From the NCBI GenBank assembly GCA_021779875.1, contig JAJXZV010000106.1, positions 1 to 14,766 on the forward strand: a stretch of DNA of 14,766 nucleotides, read 5' to 3'. The stretch is from Pseudomonadota bacterium (GTDB taxonomy: Bacteria > Pseudomonadota > Gammaproteobacteria > Steroidobacterales > Steroidobacteraceae). Both the position numbers and the translations under genes were made by a program. Below, piece after piece: positions 2,195 through 10,910 of the stretch. Position 1 is the first letter of the stretch, and every line of letters starts with the position of its first letter. The notes beneath the pieces are model-generated. The model was not told the origin of the DNA. It saw nothing but the letters and a program-made list of their open reading frames with translations, and ran no database searches.

Positions 2195-2812
2195 CTAGGC
2201 GCCGGCGCCGGCCACCAGCCGCGCGGTGATCTTCGCCACGTGCTCGCCTTGGAATCGGCACATGTCGAGTTCCAGCGCCGTCGGCATGCGCAGTTCCGGC
2301 CCGGCGCCGGTGACGCAGCTGGCTCCGTAGGGCGTGCCGCCCGTGACCTCGCGCAGGGTCGCCAGATCCCGGTAGGTGTACGGGAGCCCGACGATGATCA
2401 TGCCGTGATGGAGCAGGGTGGTATGGAACGAGGTGAGCGTGGTCTCCTGGCCGCCGTGTTGACTGGCGGTGCTGCAGAAGACGCTGCCGACCTTGCCGAC
2501 CAGCGCGTGGCGGGCCCACAACGCCCCGGTCTGATCGAGGAAGTTGCGCATCTGGGAAGCCATGTTGCCGAAGCGCGTGGGCGTGCCGAAGATGATGGCG
2601 TCGTACTGGTCGAGCTCGCCGGGCTGGGCGACGGGCGCCGCCTGCTCCAGCCGAAAGCCCGCGGCCTTGGCGACCTCGGGCGGTGTGAGTTCCGGTACGC
2701 GCTTCACCGTGACGCGGGTGCCGGCGACCCGGGACGCGCCTTCGGCCTGCGCGTGGGCCATGGCCTCGATGTGCCCGTAGCTGCTGTAGTAGAGAATCAG
2801 GATTTGGCTCAT
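2195..2812 (-). CDS. wrbA: NAD(P)H:quinone oxidoreductase, WrbA type (flavodoxin fold)
   Basis: A 205-residue cytosolic FMN protein of the WrbA (type IV) family, which reduces quinones by two electrons and so avoids semiquinones. The phosphate-binding loop is near the N-terminus ([13 protein letters not shown], 7-19). The isoalloxazine-binding segments GTPTRFGNM (76-84), [10 protein letters not shown] (117-126) and [12 protein letters not shown] (158-169) are all present, and length is normal. It starts ten bases after the hydrolase stop with GAGG eight bases before the ATG, so the two genes form a tight operon. Placement beside an IclR regulator and a hydrolase suggests it handles a quinone or catechol-type intermediate rather than general stress, but that is inferred from context. 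Confidence 0.93.
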
Positions 2813-2822
2813 GAATCGGACC

Positions 2823-3656
2823 TCAATGATCGGTGGAGGGAAGTGCGTGCCGTCGCAGGAACCCGTGCAGGACCTGTTCGTAGACGCGCGGGTTGTCGAG
2901 ATTGCTCAGGTGGCCCGCGCCGGGTATTTCGGCGAACTCGGCGTGCGCGAGGCGCGCCCGGATCCGTGCCGCATAATCCTTCCGGCTCGGCAGGTCGAAC
3001 TCACCGTTGAGCAACAGCACCGGGCAGGAGATCGATTCGAGCGGCGCCCCCTGCGCGGCGGCCGCCGACGCGGGCGCCGGCGCGATCAGGTCCCGGCCGG
3101 TGTAGCGGGCGAGCATGCGATCCAAGAGCGCATGCGTCGGCGGATCCTCGGTGCGCAGCCGTGCGAGGGGATGGCGGCGCCATTCGCGCCGAAACGCCGC
3201 CAGCCCCTGGGTGCGGACCAGCGTGCGGTAGTGGGCATAGGGCAGATCGGACGGTTCGTCGGCGGCCGGCGCGGCGTCGAGCCGCGGCGGCCCGTCGAGC
3301 ACCGCGCAGGAGATCATCGGCGCATGCGCGGCGGCGAACCGAGCGACGACGCGCGCACCTTGCGACATGCCGACCAGAGCCACGCGTTCGAGCGCGAGGT
3401 GTCGGCACAGCGCGTGCACGTCCGCGACGTCCGCGGCGATGGACGGCCGGCCCGACGATAGGCCGAATCCCCGGCGATCCAGGCGAACGACGCGAAAATC
3501 GCGGGCGAGCGCCGCCGCCTGCGCCTCCCACATGTCCAGATCGAGCGTCCAGCCGTGCACCAGCAGCACGCCGGGTCCCTGTCCGTCGACGCGATAGCGC
3601 AGGCGCGCGCCGTCGACCGCGAGATGGGAGCCGGCAGCTGAAGCGGATTCGGCCAA
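2823..3656 (-). CDS. Alpha/beta-fold hydrolase, enol-lactonase-like
   Basis: A 277-residue alpha/beta hydrolase resembling 3-oxoadipate enol-lactonase (PcaD-like) and related esterases. The oxyanion motif is HGW (34-36), the nucleophile S98 in LVGMSQGAR, the acid D221 in LNGEFDLPS and the base H249 in IPGAGHLSN: a complete triad. RRGFGLSSG (61-69) is the usual loop after strand beta-4. A cap domain lies around 130-205. The start is TTG, chosen because AGGAGA sits four bases upstream and no ATG or GTG is better placed. An IclR-type operator and a good promoter lie just upstream, so it is transcribed separately from iclR and carries wrbA behind it. The substrate (lactone, ester or C-C bond) cannot be assigned; an aromatic-catabolism role is suggested by neighbours. 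Confidence 0.88.
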
Positions 3657-3669: not shown

Positions 3670-3684
3670 TTTCGTATAGCGAAA
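3670..3684. promoter_or_regulatory. IclR-type operator, box 1 (hydrolase-wrbA promoter)
   Basis: TTTCGTATAGCGAAA is a perfect 5-base-arm palindrome with a 5-base centre. Its reverse complement equals box 4 at 4668-4682 exactly. An extra half-site TTTCGC follows at 3689-3694. It lies between the probable promoter and the hydrolase start, at or just after the expected transcription start, where a bound regulator would repress. IclR-family regulators commonly bind palindromes of about this length; the iclR gene is adjacent. Confidence 0.75.
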
Positions 3685-3698
3685 AATATTTCGCTTTC

Positions 3699-3728
3699 AG
3701 GCTACGTGCAGCCGGAGGCGGTCGTCAA
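3699..3728 (-). promoter_or_regulatory. Probable sigma-70 promoter of hydrolase-wrbA
   Basis: On the minus strand TTGACG (3728-3723) is five of six to the -35 consensus. An 18-base spacer leads to TAGCCT (3704-3699), a weak -10. The expected start falls within operator box 1/its half-site. This supports independent transcription of hydrolase-wrbA from iclR. Confidence 0.45.
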
Positions 3729-3757
3729 GGCGTCGGCGGCGAACGCCCGGGTCCGGC

Positions 3758-4567
3758 TCAGATGTGCGCGCTGAGCGACAGGCCCGGAACCTTGGCGAGA
3801 TCCGCTGAGATCTCGCGGCTCAGCTGCTTGAGCATGGTGAAGCGCTCGCGCACCAGCTTCGCCTTGCTGATCCGCCGCGAGTGGCTGGAGGTGTTGAGCG
3901 CGGCGACCACGCGGGCGGATTGATCGAACACCGGCACGGCCAGCGCGACCACGCCGTAGGCCAGTTCATCCTCGACGGCCGAATAGCCGCAATGCCGGCA
4001 TTCCTCGACGAGCTGTCGCAGCTGCCTCGGGTCCGTGACCGTTCGATTGGTCAACTGCACGGGTCTCAGGCCGTCGAAGTATTCCTCCAGATGCGAAGGG
4101 CTCAGGCCCGCGAGCAGTACGCGGCCGGTGGAGGTCGGGTAGGCGGGGAAGCGGCTGCCCACATGCGCCTCCAAGCGCACCAGGGTCCGTATGGAGGCGC
4201 GCGCCACGTACACGGTCTCACCGCCCTCGAGCACACAGAGCGCCGCCGAGTCGCCGGTGCGCCGGGCGAGCTCCTCGAGGTGCGTCTTGGTGAGGAACTC
4301 GATGTTCATGGATTCGAGATACGCGGCGCCGAGCTCGAGCACCTTCGGCCGCAGCACGAACTGCCGGCCGCTGCGCGTGACGTAGCCGAGCTCCTCGAGC
4401 GTGAGCAGGCAGCGGCGGGTGGTGGCCGCGGGCATCTGCGTGGCCGCGGCGAGGTCGCTCAGGCTCATGGCGGCGCGTTCGCGCGTGAACGCGCGGATGA
4501 CGCCGAGTCCCTTCGCCAAGCCGCCCATGGCTTCGCGGCGCGGCGGTGCCGAGTTGTTCTTGCGCAT
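3758..4567 (-). CDS. IclR-family transcriptional regulator (PcaR/PcaU-like)
   Basis: A 269-residue regulator with an N-terminal winged HTH and C-terminal IclR effector-binding domain. Residues 16-80 carry the DNA-binding part (GLAKGLGVIRAFTRERAAMSL, cut here after 'SL', then LAAATQMPAATTRRCLLTLE and GYVTRSGRQFVLRPKVLEL). The effector domain runs from about 85 to 258 with SAALCVLEGGETVYVARA, AYPTSTGRVLLAG and VEDELAYGVVALAVPV. This resembles regulators of protocatechuate/beta-ketoadipate catabolism. An open frame continues to an ATG at 4648, but it would run through operator box 2 and the likely promoter, so the ATG at 4567 is preferred. No ribosome site precedes it, and the probable -10 ends eight bases upstream, so the message may be leaderless. 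Probable control of itself, hydrolase-wrbA and the divergent lyase operon is inferred from the four boxes. Confidence 0.92.
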   Translation of the reverse strand: MRKNNSAPPRREAMGGLAKGLGVIRAFTRERAAMSLSDLAAATQMPAATTRRCLLTLEELGYVTRSGRQFVLRPKVLELGAAYLESMNIEFLTKTHLEELARRTGDSAALCVLEGGETVYVARASIRTLVRLEAHVGSRFPAYPTSTGRVLLAGLSPSHLEEYFDGLRPVQLTNRTVTDPRQLRQLVEECRHCGYSAVEDELAYGVVALAVPVFDQSARVVAALNTSSHSRRISKAKLVRERFTMLKQLSREISADLAKVPGLSLSAHI

Positions 4568-4574
4568 GCGGCGC

Positions 4575-4603
4575 AGTGTATTTCGATATGCGAAATCTTG
4601 GAA
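4575..4603 (-). promoter_or_regulatory. Probable iclR promoter with operator inside its spacer
   Basis: On the minus strand TTCCAA (4603-4598, weak -35), a 17-base spacer and TACACT (4580-4575, four of six -10). Operator box 2 fills the spacer almost exactly. The implied transcription start is at or within a few bases of the iclR ATG. The -35 match is poor, so this rests on the -10, the spacing and the operator position together. Confidence 0.35.
4581..4595. promoter_or_regulatory. IclR-type operator, box 2 (iclR promoter)
   Basis: TTTCGATATGCGAAA has the same TTTCG/CGAAA arms as box 1. It lies 14 bases upstream of the iclR ATG in the probable -35/-10 spacer, an arrangement expected for negative autoregulation. 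Confidence 0.7.
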
Positions 4604-4619
4604 CGTCTTTCCACCGAGC

Positions 4620-4625
4620 TTGACG
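4620..4625 (+). promoter_or_regulatory. Possible -35 element of the lyase operon
   Basis: TTGACG lies upstream of boxes 3 and 4. The best -10 options (AGCATA with an 18-base spacer, CATATT with 20) are poor and touch box 3, so the promoter may need help from the regulator or may use another start. Confidence 0.25.
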
Positions 4626-4649
4626 CGCCCCGCGTTCGCGTTCAGCATA

Positions 4650-4662
4650 TTCGTTATGCGAA
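4650..4662. promoter_or_regulatory. IclR-type operator, box 3 (lyase promoter, upstream member of pair)
   Basis: TTCGTTATGCGAA is a 4-base-arm version of the palindrome; the outermost bases differ from the TTTCG/CGAAA form. Its centre is 19 bases from that of box 4, close to two helical turns, so the two sites face roughly the same side of the helix. Confidence 0.65.
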
Positions 4663-4667
4663 GGCGA

Positions 4668-4682
4668 TTTCGCTATACGAAA
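4668..4682. promoter_or_regulatory. IclR-type operator, box 4 (lyase promoter, downstream member of pair)
   Basis: TTTCGCTATACGAAA is the exact reverse complement of box 1 almost 1 kb away. It ends 32 bases before the GTG start of the lyase gene. Confidence 0.75.
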
Positions 4683-4714: not shown

Positions 4715-5524
4715 GTGAAAATCGGTCCACAGGCGCATCACAGTTCCGCGATCTCGACCTCGAACGAGGCGACCATCGTGGTCCGCGGCCGAGATCTCAC
4801 ACGGGATCTGATCGGCCGCATCAGCTTCACGGATCATTTCTGGCTGCTGCTGACCGGGCACATGCCGACCGATGCGCAGCGCCGCATCCTGGATGCCACG
4901 CTGGTGGCCATCGCGGAGCACGGTCTCGTGCCGAGCGTGCAGGCGAGCCGCATGACGCTCGCGGCGGCGCCGGAAGCGCTGCAAGGTGCGGTGGCCGCGG
5001 GAATTCTCGGGTGCGGCTCGGTGGTGCTAGGTTCCTCCGAGGCGGCGGGCCGGTTCTTCGCCGCCGTCGCGGCGCGCGCCGCCACGGGGCTGCCCGAGGA
5101 GCAGGCCGCGAGGGCGGTGATCCTCGAGTACCGCGCGGAGCGCCGTGCGATCCCGGGCTACGGGCATCCCCTGCACACCGCGAGCGATCCGCGCGCCCTG
5201 CGCCTGTTCGAGGTCGCCGCGGAGGCGGGCTCGAGCGGGGCGCACATCGGCATCGCGCGTCTGGTCGAAGGTCTGCTGCCGGAAGTCATCGGCAAGCGGC
5301 TCGCCCTGAACGTGTCGGGGGCGATCCCGGCCGCGCTTCTCGACGCCGGCTATCCGCTCGGCGCGCTGAAGGGCATTCCCATTCTCGCGCGCACCGCGGG
5401 CCTCATCGGCCATCTGCTCGAGGAGCAGCAGCGGCCGATCGGCTTCGTCCTGTCGCATGCGGCGGCCGCCGCGATCAGCTACGACGGGGACGCGCCCCCC
5501 GGATTCGAGCCGAGCCATGAGTGA
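4715..5524 (+). CDS. Citrate-synthase-fold 'citryl-CoA lyase'-like protein
   Basis: A 269-residue protein of the short citrate-synthase-related group usually annotated citryl-CoA lyase, expected to split (or form) a C-C bond between acetyl-CoA and an oxo acid. Recognisable blocks are ALQGAVAAGILGCGSVVLG (88-106), GYGHPLHTASDPRALRLF (148-165), equivalent to the GxGHxxxxxxDPR block of citrate synthase with H151, and LARTAGLIGHLLEEQQRPIGF (224-244, one residue dropped at will). The catalytic Asp normally found as NVDG or NVDF is Ser here: LNVSGAIPAALLD with S201. The GTG at 4715 is chosen because the next in-frame ATG would delete the N-terminal domain; GGGGGA lies ten bases upstream. The open frame reaches back into iclR but that part is antisense. 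It overlaps the CoA-transferase start by eight bases, so the pair is translationally coupled. Confidence 0.82.
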   Translation: MKIGPQAHHSSAISTSNEATIVVRGRDLTRDLIGRISFTDHFWLLLTGHMPTDAQRRILDATLVAIAEHGLVPSVQASRMTLAAAPEALQGAVAAGILGCGSVVLGSSEAAGRFFAAVAARAATGLPEEQAARAVILEYRAERRAIPGYGHPLHTASDPRALRLFEVAAEAGSSGAHIGIARLVEGLLPEVIGKRLALNVSGAIPAALLDAGYPLGALKGIPILARTAGLIGHLLEEQQRPIGFVLSHAAAAAISYDGDAPPGFEPSHE

Positions 5525-6710
5525 CGGGCGGGATCCGTTTCACCTGGGCGGCGCATTGAGCGGCATCCGCGTCGTCGAGCAGGGCACGTTCATCACCGGA
5601 CCGTGCGCCGGGATGATGCTCGCCGACCTCGGCGCCGACGTGATCAAGGTGGAGAGCCCCGACGGCGACCCGTACCGCAGCTATCAGGGGGAGCACTACT
5701 CGCCGCACTTCCAGGCCTACAACCGCAACAAGCGCAGCATCGCGCTCGACATGAAGGCGGCGCGGGACCGGGGCGTGTTCGACGGCCTGGTGCGCGATGC
5801 CGACGTCTTCATCCAGAATTTCAGACCCGGCACCGCGGAGCGCCTGGGGGCCGGCAGCGAGCGTCTGCTCGCGCTCAATCCCCGCCTGATCTACGCCTCG
5901 ATCAGCGGCTTCGGCTCGAGCGGTCCGTACGCGGAGCGCCCGAGCTACGATTCGGTCGCGCAGGCGCTGAGCGGGTTCCTGAGCGTCGTCGTCGATGCGG
6001 ACCGTCCGCGGTTCCTGGGTCCCGCGCTCGCCGACGCGATCACCGGCATCTACGCTGCGTACGGCGTGCTCGGTGCGCTGGTGCAGCGGGGGCGCACCTC
6101 CCGGGGAACCCTGGTCGAGGTGTCGATGCTCGAGGCCATGGCCCACTTCGCGGTCGAGCCGTTCGCCGCCTACTTCGCGCTCGGGCAGGCGCCCGCGTCG
6201 AGCGATCGCCCGCGGCTGGCGCAGGCTTACATCCTGCGCACGGCGGACCGCCGGCTCCTCGCCATTCACCTGTCGTCTCTGGAGAAATTCTGGGACGGGC
6301 TGGTCGGCGCCCTGGACGCGGCGGACCTGCGCGGCGACGCGCGATTCGCGACGCGCGCGGCGCGCATCGCCAACTACGAACAGCTCAACGCCGAACTCGA
6401 TCGGCGCTTCTCGCGCCACTCGCTGGCCCACTGGGTCGAGGCGCTCGGCCGCAACGACGTGCCGTACGCGCCCGTGAACAGCATCGACGAGGTCACCCAC
6501 GACCCGCAGGTCGAGCACCTCGGCCTGATCGTCCCGGTCGAGGGCGCGCACGGCGGCAGCCGCTCGGTGCGGCCGGCGGTGCAATTCGGCGGCGAACGCC
6601 GCGGCTCCGTGCGGGCGGCACCGATTCTGGACGAGCACGGAGATCGGATCCGCGACGCGTTGGCGCGCGGTGAGCGCTGGCCCGCCGCGGACGGCGGGAA
6701 TTGCGGCTGA
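5517..6710 (+). CDS. CaiB/BaiF-family (class III) CoA-transferase
   Basis: A 397-residue cytosolic CoA-transferase that moves CoA between an acyl-CoA donor and a carboxylic acid through an aspartyl-CoA anhydride. The N-terminal Rossmann-like part has GIRVVEQGTFITGPCAGMML (16-35) and LADLGADVIKVESPDGDPYR (35-54). FIQNFRPGTAERLG (98-111) and ISGFGSSGPY (129-138) are typical, and the nucleophile is probably D173 in ALADAITGIYAAYG. Length is normal. The ATG overlaps the lyase stop (ATGAGTGA), with no strong ribosome site of its own, as expected for coupled translation. Pairing with the lyase suggests one enzyme makes the CoA ester that the other cleaves. Members of this family cannot be assigned a substrate by sequence alone. 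Confidence 0.93.
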   Translation: MSDGRDPFHLGGALSGIRVVEQGTFITGPCAGMMLADLGADVIKVESPDGDPYRSYQGEHYSPHFQAYNRNKRSIALDMKAARDRGVFDGLVRDADVFIQNFRPGTAERLGAGSERLLALNPRLIYASISGFGSSGPYAERPSYDSVAQALSGFLSVVVDADRPRFLGPALADAITGIYAAYGVLGALVQRGRTSRGTLVEVSMLEAMAHFAVEPFAAYFALGQAPASSDRPRLAQAYILRTADRRLLAIHLSSLEKFWDGLVGALDAADLRGDARFATRAARIANYEQLNAELDRRFSRHSLAHWVEALGRNDVPYAPVNSIDEVTHDPQVEHLGLIVPVEGAHGGSRSVRPAVQFGGERRGSVRAAPILDEHGDRIRDALARGERWPAADGGNCG

Positions 6711-6799: not shown

Positions 6800-9013
6800 A
6801 TGAGCCTATTCAGGGGGAGATGGGTCGCCGCCTTGGCGACTCTGACGGCCGCGGCGTCCACACCGCCGGCGCAGGCGCAGACCGCACCCGGTGCGGCCGC
6901 CGACTTGGAGGAGATCACCGTCACCGCACGAAAGCGTGACGAGACCTACCGGGACGTTCCGATCACGCTGAACGTCTTCACGGAACAGGCGATCGAGGCG
7001 GCGGGCATCGAGAAGCCCGGCGACTTCATCGCGATGATTCCCAACATGACCCTGGTCGAGACCCAGAACGCCGGCAGCGCGTTCGTGACGGTGCGCGGCA
7101 TCTCGCAGGCCCGAAACAGCGAGCCCTCCGTCGCGGTCCTGGTGGACGGGGTGCTCGAGACCAATCCGGCGGAGTTCGATCAGGAGCTGTTCGACATCCA
7201 GCAGATCGAGGTGCTGAAGGGTCCGCAAGGCGCCCTTTACGGCCGCAATGCCATCGGCGGCGCGATCATCATCCGCACCAAGGAGCCGGGCGACGAGTGG
7301 GCCGGCACCGCGCGGGTCGGCGTCGGCAACGGCGATTCCGAACGGGCGCAGCTCGCGCTCAGCGGACCCCTGAACGACTCGAAGACCTTGAAGTTCGCCG
7401 CTTCGGCGAACTTCTACAATACCGGGGGCTTCCTCGAGAACACGTACCTGCACCAGAAGGCCGACCCCGCGCGGGACTACTCCGGTCGCATGCGCCTGCT
7501 GTGGGAGCCGAGCGACGACTTCACCGCCGATCTGCGGGTGTCCGGGTCCTACCTGCACACCCAGGCGTTCTATTTCGTCATCCCGAGGGCGAATGAGGCG
7601 AATCCGTTCAGCACCTTCACCACGCCCCCGGATGCGAACAACGTCTCCACGCCGATCACCGTGAACAATCCGGGCGAGGACAACAGGGACATTTTCGACA
7701 CGGCCCTCAAGATCGACATCAAGCGGCCCTATGGCACCATCACCTCGATCTCGGCGTACAACGTCACCAAGGAGATCGCGACCGGCGACGCGTACGATTT
7801 CCGCCCCATAGCCGACTCCATCTACCACGCGTTGCTCGGCTTCGACCTGAATCAAAGTCAGTTCCTGAACGTCAAAGCCTTCAGTCAGGAGCTGCGCTTC
7901 ACCTCGCCGACCAGCGATCGGTTCAACTGGCTCGCCGGCGCCTATTTCGTCCATACGGACCGTTTCATCTCCACCGGCAACATGGTCGACACCGGCGCGG
8001 GCGTCTTTCCGGTCTACGAGACGCCGCGGCTGACGGGTCCGAACCGAAGCTTCACGTTCCTGGCGGACACCCAGAACAACAATGCCTGGGCGCTGTTCGG
8101 CGACGCGACCTACGAGATCTCGCGGCAGTGGGAGCTCGACGTCGCGGCGCGTTATGACCAGGACGAGCGGCAGAACACGACCAACACGCCGACCGCGTTC
8201 CTGCCAGATCCGGCCGACTCCTACAGCGGCGAGGTCCGCAAGCACACCTGGAGCGAATTGCAGCCGAAAGGCACGCTGCGCTACAAGCCCGCGGACGACC
8301 TCACCCTGTACGGCGGCTGGAGCCGCGGCTTTCGCAGCGGCGGCTTCAACCAGACCGGCGTGGGCGCCGTCGCCCGCGCCAACAACGTGCTCGGCGTGAA
8401 CGACCTGTTCGCGGGGGAGGTCGCCGACACGTGGGAGGTGGGCATGAAGAGCCAGATGTTGGAGCGCCGTGTGAACGTCGACTTCAGCCTGTTCGACACC
8501 AAGTCGCACAACGGATATTTCTTCGTGTTTCTGCCGGCCAATTCGACCCAGAACCTCGGCAATCTCGACGCGACCTACAAGGGTGCCGAACTGGCGATCA
8601 ACGCCAAGGCCACGGACCACCTGGACCTGTACGCGAGCGCGGGGTACACGGACAGCAAGATCACGAACATGGCGGACCGGACGGTTATCGGCAACCAGGC
8701 GCCGCTGGTGACCAAGGACACCTTCAACGCCGGAGCCCAGTATCACCAGCCCTTGCGCGGGGAGATCAACGGGGTGGTGCGCGTCGACTACCGATACCTG
8801 GGCCGCACCTGGTGGGACCCGTACAACGTGACTTCCCGCGATCCGGTGTCGCTGGTCGACCTGCGCACCGGGCTCGACGCCACACGCTGGTCGCTCATGG
8901 CGTGGTCGAAGAATCTGACCAACAAACTCTACAATGCAGAGTTCTCCCCGGGCGGCTTCCTATGGAGGGCCCCGCCGCGCATGTACGGCGTCGACTACAC
9001 CTATCACTTCTGA
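6800..9013 (+). CDS. TonB-dependent outer-membrane receptor
   Basis: A 737-residue TonB-dependent receptor for energy-driven import across the outer membrane. The signal peptide ends about PPAQA/QT (residue 26). The TonB box is EEITVTARKR (37-46). The plug domain covers about 50-165, with DVPITLNVFTEQAIEAAG, FVTVRGISQ, VAVLVDGVL, IEVLKGPQGALYGRNAIGGA (shortened here) and IIIRTKEP. The beta barrel follows and ends in the aromatic terminal strand GVDYTYHF, finishing in Phe as outer-membrane proteins do. Its style is that of the large receptor families of sphingomonads and Steroidobacter-like bacteria, which often import organic nutrients rather than iron. GGGGAG lies nine bases before the ATG. 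It follows the CoA-transferase by 89 bases and precedes the VOC gene by 16, so co-transcription is likely. Ligand unknown. Confidence 0.95.
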   Translation: MSLFRGRWVAALATLTAAASTPPAQAQTAPGAAADLEEITVTARKRDETYRDVPITLNVFTEQAIEAAGIEKPGDFIAMIPNMTLVETQNAGSAFVTVRGISQARNSEPSVAVLVDGVLETNPAEFDQELFDIQQIEVLKGPQGALYGRNAIGGAIIIRTKEPGDEWAGTARVGVGNGDSERAQLALSGPLNDSKTLKFAASANFYNTGGFLENTYLHQKADPARDYSGRMRLLWEPSDDFTADLRVSGSYLHTQAFYFVIPRANEANPFSTFTTPPDANNVSTPITVNNPGEDNRDIFDTALKIDIKRPYGTITSISAYNVTKEIATGDAYDFRPIADSIYHALLGFDLNQSQFLNVKAFSQELRFTSPTSDRFNWLAGAYFVHTDRFISTGNMVDTGAGVFPVYETPRLTGPNRSFTFLADTQNNNAWALFGDATYEISRQWELDVAARYDQDERQNTTNTPTAFLPDPADSYSGEVRKHTWSELQPKGTLRYKPADDLTLYGGWSRGFRSGGFNQTGVGAVARANNVLGVNDLFAGEVADTWEVGMKSQMLERRVNVDFSLFDTKSHNGYFFVFLPANSTQNLGNLDATYKGAELAINAKATDHLDLYASAGYTDSKITNMADRTVIGNQAPLVTKDTFNAGAQYHQPLRGEINGVVRVDYRYLGRTWWDPYNVTSRDPVSLVDLRTGLDATRWSLMAWSKNLTNKLYNAEFSPGGFLWRAPPRMYGVDYTYHF

Positions 9014-9029
9014 CACGGAGACACGCGAG

Positions 9030-9581
9030 ATGACCACCACAGCGAAGCTGCCGTCCCGGCTACACCATACGGCCTACGTCGCGAAGGATCTGGAGGCGAC
9101 CCGCAAGTTCTACGAGGAGGTGATCGGGCTGCCGCTGGTCGCCACCTGGTGCGAGATCGACGAGCTGTTCGGCTCCGAACGTGTCTATTGCCACCTGTTC
9201 TTCGGGCTCGGCGACGGCAGCGCCCTCGCGTTCTTCAACTTCGCAAACCCGGAGGATCAGGCGCTCTTCGGCCCGCCGCTGCCGAGTTCGCCGTTCCGGC
9301 ACATCGCCCTCAACGTCGATCACGAGACGCAGAGGGACATCGAGCAGCGCATCGCCGCGGCCGGCTACAAGGAGCCGCAGACCTACGTGCTCGAGCACGG
9401 CTACTGCCGCTCCGTGTACGTCACCGACCCGGACGGCATGATTCTCGAGTTCACCATGGACAACCCGGCGGCGGCGGTGGATGCGGCGCAGCGCCGGCGC
9501 ACGGCTCATGCGGAGCTCGCGCGCTGGCGTGCCGGGGATCACACCTCCAACAACGGCTTCCGCAAGGCGGCGCGCGGGTGA
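9030..9581 (+). CDS. VOC/glyoxalase-fold metalloenzyme (dioxygenase-like)
   Basis: A 183-residue protein of the vicinal oxygen chelate superfamily, which includes glyoxalase I and extradiol ring-cleavage dioxygenases. Two beta-alpha-beta-beta-beta modules are visible, about 10-72 and 88-143. Probable metal ligands are H13 (RLHHTAYVAKDLEATRKFY), H91 (FRHIALNVDH) and E140 (DPDGMILEFTMD), the usual H-H-E set. The C-terminal 40 residues are charged and probably flexible. GGAG lies nine bases before the ATG, and the gene starts 16 bases after the receptor stop, so it closes the plus-strand operon. A ring-cleavage or isomerase-type step in the same pathway is plausible from context, but a fosfomycin- or glyoxalase-like role cannot be excluded from sequence. 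Confidence 0.88.
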   Translation: MTTTAKLPSRLHHTAYVAKDLEATRKFYEEVIGLPLVATWCEIDELFGSERVYCHLFFGLGDGSALAFFNFANPEDQALFGPPLPSSPFRHIALNVDHETQRDIEQRIAAAGYKEPQTYVLEHGYCRSVYVTDPDGMILEFTMDNPAAAVDAAQRRRTAHAELARWRAGDHTSNNGFRKAARG

Positions 9582-9604: not shown

Positions 9605-9641
9605 TAGGCGCCCCCGCCGGCCGTCGAGACGGCGCCGCCTA
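9605..9641. terminator. Hairpin between convergent genes, possible bidirectional terminator
   Basis: TAGGCG and CGCCTA form the outer 6-base stem, with further partly mismatched GC pairing inside. It fills the 57-base gap between the VOC gene and the convergent secreted-protein gene, and takes in the latter's stop codon. There is no T run on either side, so it is offered from position and pairing only. Confidence 0.35.
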
Positions 9642-10910
9642 AGGCGCCGCACCCGGACAGGTGAATTCCCGGTCGGCGGCGGTGCTCGGCTTCGGCGTCT
9701 CCCGGGTCCACCCGGAGGGTATGTCGAAGCGGTCCGCGGCGATGGTATCGGTGCGGATGGACACTGTCTCGATGGTGAAACGGGCCACCGGGGCCAGCGC
9801 GGCGAACGGGTCGGGGGACGGTGCGGCCGCCGCGGCGGGCGCCGGCGCGGGGGCGGGATCCGACGTCTTCTTCTTGCTGAACAGTCCGCCCATCACCTTG
9901 CCCACCGAGGCGCCCACCGCGGATCCGAGGATGGATCCCGCGACGCCCGTTCCCGCCGCGTGGCTCACCGCATCCTGCGCCGCCCCTGTGGCGGCCGCCT
10001 GGGCCGAACCGGCGGCCGCATTCGCGCCTGCCTGCGAGGCGTCGGCCAAGGTGCCCGAGCCCGCGGACGCGCCCTGATCGCGCATCTTGGCCGCGGCCGC
10101 GCAGTGCTCGCCGCCGACCAGAATGCGAATCACGCTGCGCAGCGGCTGTCCCTGCAGGTCGCTCGACTTGTCGGCGATCTGCTTGATCTGCGACTGGTAC
10201 GCGGCGAGGAATTTGGCCGCGGCGCCGCCCATCACGCCCTGAGGATCGTCCAAACCGAGCTTCCGGGCGTACGCCTGCTGGAATGCCTTTTGGTCGGCGA
10301 CGCCCGGCAGGGGGTCTTCGGTCAGCCACACGTCGAGGGCGACCACCGTGGCGCAGACGTCGCCCGTTTGGCGGTCGGTGCAGTTCTGCGTCAGGCTCAC
10401 GATGCTGTGCCGGGCGTCGTGTCCGGCGATGACGTTCGTCTCGTCGGTCCGGCGCACGTCCACGGTCGGCGGCGACATTTCGCACTTCGAGCGGTCGATG
10501 GGCGTCTGACTCTGCGGCACGGGACACGCCTGCATCTTGGCGGCCAGCGCCTGCGCCCGGGACCGCATGAGCCGCAATTGCTCCGGCGTCGCGAACGGGT
10601 CCTCACGGTAGCGCCTCTTGTCCGGCTCCAGGTGCCAGGTCACGTCCCGGTCCAGGCGCACGATCTCGCCCCCGCGCAGATTGCCGCAGAGCATGGACAT
10701 CATTCCCTCGCAGTGGGACTCGCTGTCGGTGCGTTTCTTATCGGCCGTGATGCTGTCGGTGGAGGTGCCGTGCATGCGGACCATGGAGGCCACGTCGAGC
10801 GCGGTGCTGCGCTCGATGGTCACGTCGCCGCGCGCCGCCGGCGAAGCGCCCAGCCACGCCAGCGCGAGCGCGGCGCCGGCGAAAGGGATTGCAGCCCGTT
10901 CCTTGTGCAC
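9639..10910 (-). CDS. Exported protein of unknown function, DUF4412-like with glycine-zipper insert
   Basis: Function not recognised. The 423-residue product has a signal peptide (about 1-28, ending AARG/DV), so it acts in the periplasm or outer envelope. Residues 38-102 (DVASMVRMHG, ITADKKRTDSES, EIVRLDRDVTWHLEPDKRRYRE) and the C-terminus (RFTIETVSIRTDTI, FDIPSGWTRE) resemble the two ends of DUF4412 periplasmic proteins; this similarity is judged by eye. Eight cysteines (67, 75, 129, 143, 177, 186, 270, 418) suggest disulfides. Between the halves lies an Ala/Gly-rich segment (about 280-345) ending in a GxxxG-rich stretch (GTGVAGSILGSAVGASVG, 320-337) followed by KKK, then a Pro/Ala linker (352-366). 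The start is GTG with a G-rich site (GGGGGGA) seven bases upstream. It is the downstream gene of the FAD oxidoreductase, 151 bases apart. Confidence 0.72.
   Translation of the reverse strand: MHKERAAIPFAGAALALAWLGASPAARGDVTIERSTALDVASMVRMHGTSTDSITADKKRTDSESHCEGMMSMLCGNLRGGEIVRLDRDVTWHLEPDKRRYREDPFATPEQLRLMRSRAQALAAKMQACPVPQSQTPIDRSKCEMSPPTVDVRRTDETNVIAGHDARHSIVSLTQNCTDRQTGDVCATVVALDVWLTEDPLPGVADQKAFQQAYARKLGLDDPQGVMGGAAAKFLAAYQSQIKQIADKSSDLQGQPLRSVIRILVGGEHCAAAAKMRDQGASAGSGTLADASQAGANAAAGSAQAAATGAAQDAVSHAAGTGVAGSILGSAVGASVGKVMGGLFSKKKTSDPAPAPAPAAAAAPSPDPFAALAPVARFTIETVSIRTDTIAADRFDIPSGWTRETPKPSTAADREFTCPGAAP

Follow-up and report, generated by a model that had tools for sequence, protein, structure and literature searches.

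The window analysed here, a stretch of 14,766 nucleotides from a Steroidobacteraceae genome, carries four palindromic boxes around a gene encoding an IclR-type transcriptional regulator, and the locus raises the question of whether these boxes are the operators of that regulator, which genes they place under common control and with what sign. Taken together, our analysis makes it likely that an adjacent PcaR/PobR-like IclR repressor uses the boxes as operators on three promoters, from which an inducer would release it, and in this way controls the uptake and CoA-dependent breakdown of a compound. The shared docking sequence is very likely a genuine genetic switch of a well-known kind, because it has been retained at corresponding positions in bacteria that are only distantly related, and the regulator probably controls its own gene too.

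Boxes and genes in the window

The features of the locus are collected in Table 1. An earlier note on this DNA, made from the letters of the sequence, had listed the four boxes, and its coordinates, the palindromes and the version with four-base arms are all exact in the sequence, as are the 19-bp spacing of boxes 3 and 4 (4650 to 4669) and the observation that box 1 is the exact reverse complement of box 4.

Table 1. Boxes, predicted promoter elements and genes of the cluster (positions are those of the window)
Feature	Position	Strand	Description
Box 1, full palindrome	3670..3684	.	TTTCGTATAGCGAAA; putative operator of the hydrolase-wrbA unit; exact match, kept in relatives
Half-site TTTCG	3689..3693	.	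Fifth element, same 19-bp register as box 1; not in the earlier note
Box 2, single	4581..4595	.	TTTCGATATGCGAAA; putative operator in the predicted iclR -35/-10 spacer; exact match, kept in relatives
Box 3, proximal member of 19-bp pair	4650..4662	.	TTCGTTATGCGAA; 13-base version
Box 4, distal member of 19-bp pair	4668..4682	.	TTTCGCTATACGAAA; exact match, kept in relatives
Predicted -35 (TTGACG), lyase operon	4620..4625	+	TTGAC 49-58 bp before distal box in 30/30 rows
Predicted -10 (CAGCAT), lyase operon	4643..4648	+	17 bp after -35; predicted from sequence and aligned rows
Predicted -10 (TAGCCT), hydrolase promoter	3699..3704	-	Adjoins and partly replaces the missing arm; predicted from alignment
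Predicted -35 (TTGACG), hydrolase promoter	3723..3728	-	TTGA 44-45 bp from box in 22/24 rows
Predicted -10 (TACACT), iclR	4575..4580	-	TANACT within one base after box in 22/30 rows
iclR, PcaR/PcaU/PobR-like regulator, 269 aa	3758..4567	-	HTH_IclR and IclR_C above Pfam cut-offs
Alpha/beta hydrolase	2823..3656	-	Abhydrolase_1, 91.1 bits; beyond iclR 3' end
wrbA, NAD(P)H:quinone oxidoreductase	2195..2812	-	NF002999, 317 bits (cut-off 141); beyond iclR 3' end
Citryl-CoA-lyase-like enzyme	4715..5524	+	GTG start; NF004868, 313.5 bits (cut-off 193); divergent from iclR
Class III CoA-transferase	5517..6710	+	CoA_transf_3, 355.9 bits
TonB-dependent receptor	6800..9013	+	Barrel and plug domains
VOC (glyoxalase-fold) enzyme	9030..9581	+	Glyoxalase, 42.4 bits; scanned from 9024, two codons early

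The regulator passes the IclR family models (HTH_IclR, 57 bits against a cut-off of 22; IclR_C, 134.2 against 24). Its nearest subfamily model is TIGR02431 (PcaR/PcaU/PobR), against which it scores 256.1 bits, under the cut-off of 284.75, and it is not filed as a member; the genes of the cluster belong to families other than the beta-ketoadipate and 4-hydroxybenzoate target genes that characterize this subfamily, and the hydrolase reaches 94.7 bits with the PcaD model, far under its cut-off of 255.85. A distant profile match links the regulator to the TtgV structures 2xrn and 2xro (E 8.4e-19). A longer iclR frame from the ATG at 4648 was rejected: the orthologue matches listed start at, or close to, codon 1 of the frame from 4567, and the added stretch is the conserved promoter. 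The lyase matches the solved citryl-CoA lyase 6hxp_A with 116 bits, and its substrate could be a 3-hydroxyacyl-CoA other than citryl-CoA. Elsewhere in the window, the minus strand encodes a protein of 423 aa that matches no Pfam or NCBIfam family (9639-10910), a LuxR-type response regulator (1216-1962) and a SCO1/SenC protein (489-1112), the last two lacking boxes nearby and apparently outside the regulon.

The number of near-exact boxes in the window was compared with 500 dinucleotide shuffles of the same sequence. The exact 15-mer TTTCG-N5-CGAAA occurs in the shuffles with a mean of 0.004 and a maximum of 1, against three copies present, and the 13-mer TTCG-N5-CGAA with a mean of 0.306 and a maximum of 4, against four present. 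The host assembly (2,366,673 bases in 451 contigs, 72% complete) contains the 15-mer in three places, all of them in the window, with none for the reversed-pattern control, and the 13-mer in 27 places, four of them in the window (control, 8); at the background rate, the Poisson tail for four 13-mers within 1,013 bp is 4e-10, a post-hoc figure. When two mismatches are allowed, the motif is common both in the host (393 places; control, 177) and in the window (6 places against 3.91 expected), and only near-exact boxes are therefore informative. The 23 places of the 13-mer outside the window were considered as further regulon sites of the host and rejected on the basis of one of them, C351, which lies inside mechanical reading frames and has no match to the cluster proteins in its neighbourhood.

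Predicted promoters and mode of control

The promoter context of the boxes was analysed on aligned rows from related loci. Thirty rows (29 relatives and the window) comprise loci in which iclR and the lyase gene are divergent within 400 bp, and 24 rows comprise the hydrolase promoters of loci whose regulator exceeds 64% identity and which have an exact core no more than 260 bp from the iclR end, using wrbA where there is no hydrolase match; L081, in which a hydrolase is present and no exact core lies near the iclR end, falls outside the latter set. In close relatives, the boxes that had been placed at the starts of hydrolase-wrbA, iclR and lyase occupy fixed places on predicted promoters. The lyase promoter, previously described as weak, has a TTGAC -35-like element in every row, and in 26 of the 30 this element lies 49-52 bp ahead of the distal core. 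The partner of that core matches all eight arm positions in 20 rows and seven of eight in the other 10 and, given the 17-bp spacer, the -10 element is predicted to lie just ahead of the 19-bp pair, with the transcription start inside it. On the opposite strand, the iclR start codon lies 6-8 bases beyond TANACT in 22 of the 30 rows (7 bases in the window, 4565-4580), so that a nearly leaderless iclR message is predicted in the close group.

The hydrolase promoter departs from the earlier description, which had set a single site at the hydrolase against a pair before the lyase. A CGAA half-site six bases from the hydrolase core is kept in 22 of the 24 rows, the exceptions being L068 and L072, and the hydrolase operator therefore consists of three half-sites in a 19-bp register; of the three operators, only that of iclR is a single site. 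The two exceptional loci have regulators 69-71% identical to that of the window and may represent a variant regulon: cores lie next to amidohydrolase genes in both, and L072 has cores next to a gluconolactonase-like gene and a TonB receptor as well. Promoter geometry counts as an argument in the close group only, since TTGAC does not keep its position in the distant one: it falls in the -36 to -28 range for 4 of 20 occurrences in distant loci, compared with 22 of 26 in close ones.

Box position bears directly on the sign of regulation. For PcaR, position sets the sign, and the protein acts as repressor or activator depending on the promoter (PMC12455658): boxes placed after the -10 element of engineered promoters gave repression, activation is possible from positions upstream or within the spacer, and one construct carrying its box after the -10 was repressed more deeply when inducer was present. 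Repression is the simplest reading of the present locus, where two of the three operators appear to lie over the predicted -10 and start, like the repressing PcaR boxes. The same regulator, sites and regulon would also accommodate inducer-dependent activation of the catabolic operons, or a dual action of the PcaR type. This reading draws on the nearest model being PcaR/PcaU/PobR, with PcaR able to act either way, and on the spacer position of the iclR box, from which PcaR can activate. We consider it unlikely, as the lyase and hydrolase operators of the close group lie over the predicted -10 and start, and both promoters have TTGAC -35-like elements, a combination more in keeping with a promoter that needs blocking than with one that needs help. 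Because a PcaR spacer box can activate and an inducer can deepen repression, position does not fix the sign or the inducer effect.

Under the favoured reading of repression, the regulator would occupy all three promoters when inducer is absent. One dimer would sit in the -35/-10 spacer of iclR itself, whereas RNA polymerase would be blocked over the -10 and start of the lyase promoter by two dimers in the fixed 19-bp register, and over those of the hydrolase promoter by a dimer plus a half-site contact in the same register. A spacing of 19 bp would suit a pair of dimers bound to the same face of the helix, an arrangement that has been argued for the family (PMC8222616). The promoters would then be freed by the inducer, which is probably either an intermediate of the pathway or its substrate.

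Conservation of boxes, regulator and cluster

Among the matches listed from a search of 296 genomes, host included, the regulator is found at 67-74% identity in eight further genomes, all from the host's family. No orthologue of the regulator is present in the eight other genomes sampled from the host's genus, whose best listed matches are 38-40% identical, and the cluster is thus patchy in the genus, through gain, loss or a misbinned contig of the incomplete assembly. The order iclR, lyase, CoA-transferase, receptor is kept in all eight loci, followed by the VOC gene in seven; the contig of the eighth, L037, breaks off inside the receptor gene. Hydrolase and wrbA lie directly beyond iclR in six of the eight, and in the remaining two (L042 and L043) a hydrolase is located elsewhere and no wrbA match of 50 bits is present.

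The boxes are kept along with the genes. One core precedes iclR in 9/9 loci (the eight relatives and the window), and the lyase gene is preceded in 9/9 by a core that has its partner at a distance of 19 bp, the partner having one mismatch in L036-L039. Single 15-mers occur in those eight genomes at 42 places, 14 in the cluster and 28 elsewhere (reversed control, 31), and specificity therefore rests on the paired, promoter-placed arrangement. The exact pair TTCG-N5-CGAA-N6-TTCG-N5-CGAA is present in 11 of the 296 genomes, once in each, with no occurrence of the reversed control, and 10 of the 11 pairs lie at a locus of the regulator or of its relatives with 42-43% identity. The off-cluster pair (G276:C91) was rejected as a regulon site, as it sits inside long reading frames and no match to a cluster protein is present over 9.6 kb. 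The proposal that the boxes define one regulon with two arms and probable autoregulation is supported by these results, and two of the conditions named in the earlier note as refuting it do not hold, the exact motif being confined to the cluster in the host and kept in orthologous clusters.

Conservation beyond the order was assessed in loci obtained by running the regulator alignment against a single genome of each species and taking the best 80 of 131 relatives; the motif was not a criterion. These loci come from Steroidobacteraceae, other Gammaproteobacteria, Sphingomonadales, Hyphomonadaceae, Azospirillum and Nitrospirillum, and since locus and genome sets overlap (e.g. L057 is G237), the two are not independent. 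The 13-base core occurs in 77 of the 80 loci, with 282 copies, and 91 pairs of cores are exactly 19 bp apart, the only other spacing below 60 bp being 59 bp (five cases). By comparison, 11 control half-sites of the same composition yield 2-48 occurrences in the same 80 loci and no pair under 60 bp. Windows of up to 400 bp upstream of a matched cluster-gene start make up 19% of the bases and hold 254 of the 282 cores and 88 of the 91 pairs. Counting divergent promoters once per side, the pairs lie upstream of the lyase (55), receptor (36), CoA-transferase (22), iclR (20) and VOC (9) genes. Gene order varies between groups, and the operators therefore follow the genes. Within the same best 80 of 131, 70 loci bear a lyase gene; an exact pair is present in 57 and a one-mismatch partner in nine others, and in the lyase loci L083-L086, from Nitrospirillum and Azospirillum, all boxes are single. 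No core is present in L089, L107 and L111, and these three loci lack the cluster, save that L107 has a wrbA match at its edge. A scan of twenty neighbouring frames in the relatives yielded several without a family and no clear pathway member beyond a gene of the Meth_synt_2 family (cobalamin-independent methionine-synthase type), which lies between the CoA-transferase and receptor genes in L040 (12365-13462) and L055 (2792-3832) and is absent from the window.

These data also bear on the identity of the regulator. The host assembly holds a second IclR gene (C299) and, being 72% complete, may be missing more regulators, so the boxes might belong to another protein, IclR or unrelated, with the adjacent iclR as a bystander. 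We regard this as highly improbable given that the core accompanies the regulator in 77 of the best 80 of 131 relatives, across two classes and changing gene orders, whereas among 16 loci of other IclR genes (L020-L035, with 1.5-kb flanks) a stray core is seen in four and the 19-bp pair in none. An origin of the palindromes by chance in a GC-rich window, to which the commonness of the two-mismatch motif and the mostly off-cluster position of single 15-mers in relatives might lend colour, is ruled out for all practical purposes by the conservation result, since the exact copies, their strict spacing and their place on the promoter are kept in tens of loci and those of the controls are not.

Proposed pathway and relation to known IclR systems

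From the family names alone we infer the outline of a pathway substrate, pointing to outer-membrane uptake, CoA transfer and citrate-type cleavage. The compound would enter via the TonB receptor, receive CoA and then undergo a citrate-type carbon-carbon cleavage, with the hydrolase, WrbA and the VOC enzyme acting in the same route. We put at roughly even the chances that this is a regulon undescribed so far, spanning Steroidobacteraceae, other Gammaproteobacteria, Sphingomonadales and Azospirillum-type bacteria and serving a TonB-imported compound that is activated by CoA-transferase and split by the lyase, whose regulator and 19-bp operators have moved as a module through repeated rearrangements. 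The shared operator ties orphan enzymes into one testable pathway and indicates which genes work together in many species. Carriers of the cluster include Peristeroidobacter soli JW-3, Steroidobacter gossypii S1-65 and Sphingosinicella terrae KCTC 52780; the shared operator offers a promoter reporter with which the inducing compound could be sought, and the locus provides a natural series of operators for one IclR regulator, ranging from one site through one and a half to two.

Among the papers listed in our search of the library, none deals with the gene set and none contains any of six box sequences; an earlier listing in the supplements of PMC8222616 or in RegPrecise is possible. The main text of PMC8222616 does not name the gene set of the cluster, with no mention of citryl or TonB. 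In that work, Suvorova and Gelfand (2021) describe for IclR group-1 operators the subgroup WTT-11-AAW, with consensus WTTYCRYW3RYGRAAW, to which boxes 1 and 4 with their flanks conform at 17 of 17 positions, box 2 at 16 and box 3 at 14. They also report tandem sites with centres 18-22 nt apart in 94 orthologous groups, a range that includes the 19-bp pair of the window and the 91 pairs of the 80 loci.

Among individual regulators, PcaU, PobR and HmgR have three-box operators (PMC8222616), and the hydrolase operator likewise comprises three half-sites of alternating direction; these proteins govern the use of protocatechuate, 4-hydroxybenzoate and homogentisate, whereas the family scans of the present regulon matched no pca, pob or hmg gene. 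PcaR of Pseudomonas putida belongs to the same regulator subfamily and has an operator core (GTTCGATAATCGCAC) similar to the present boxes, but it works through a single box, on beta-ketoadipate genes and with a response to succinate (PMC12455658). The TtgV tetramer on its operator (2xro; PMC8222616) provides a model for dimers on neighbouring sites of the kind proposed here, although TtgV is an efflux regulator and its operator differs from these boxes. The mechanism is thus not new, since motif class, tandem spacing, three-box sites and autoregulation have all been described for IclR regulators (PMC8222616); to these known systems the present analysis adds a well-bounded regulon with its operators, a corrected hydrolase operator and, probably, a pathway not described before.
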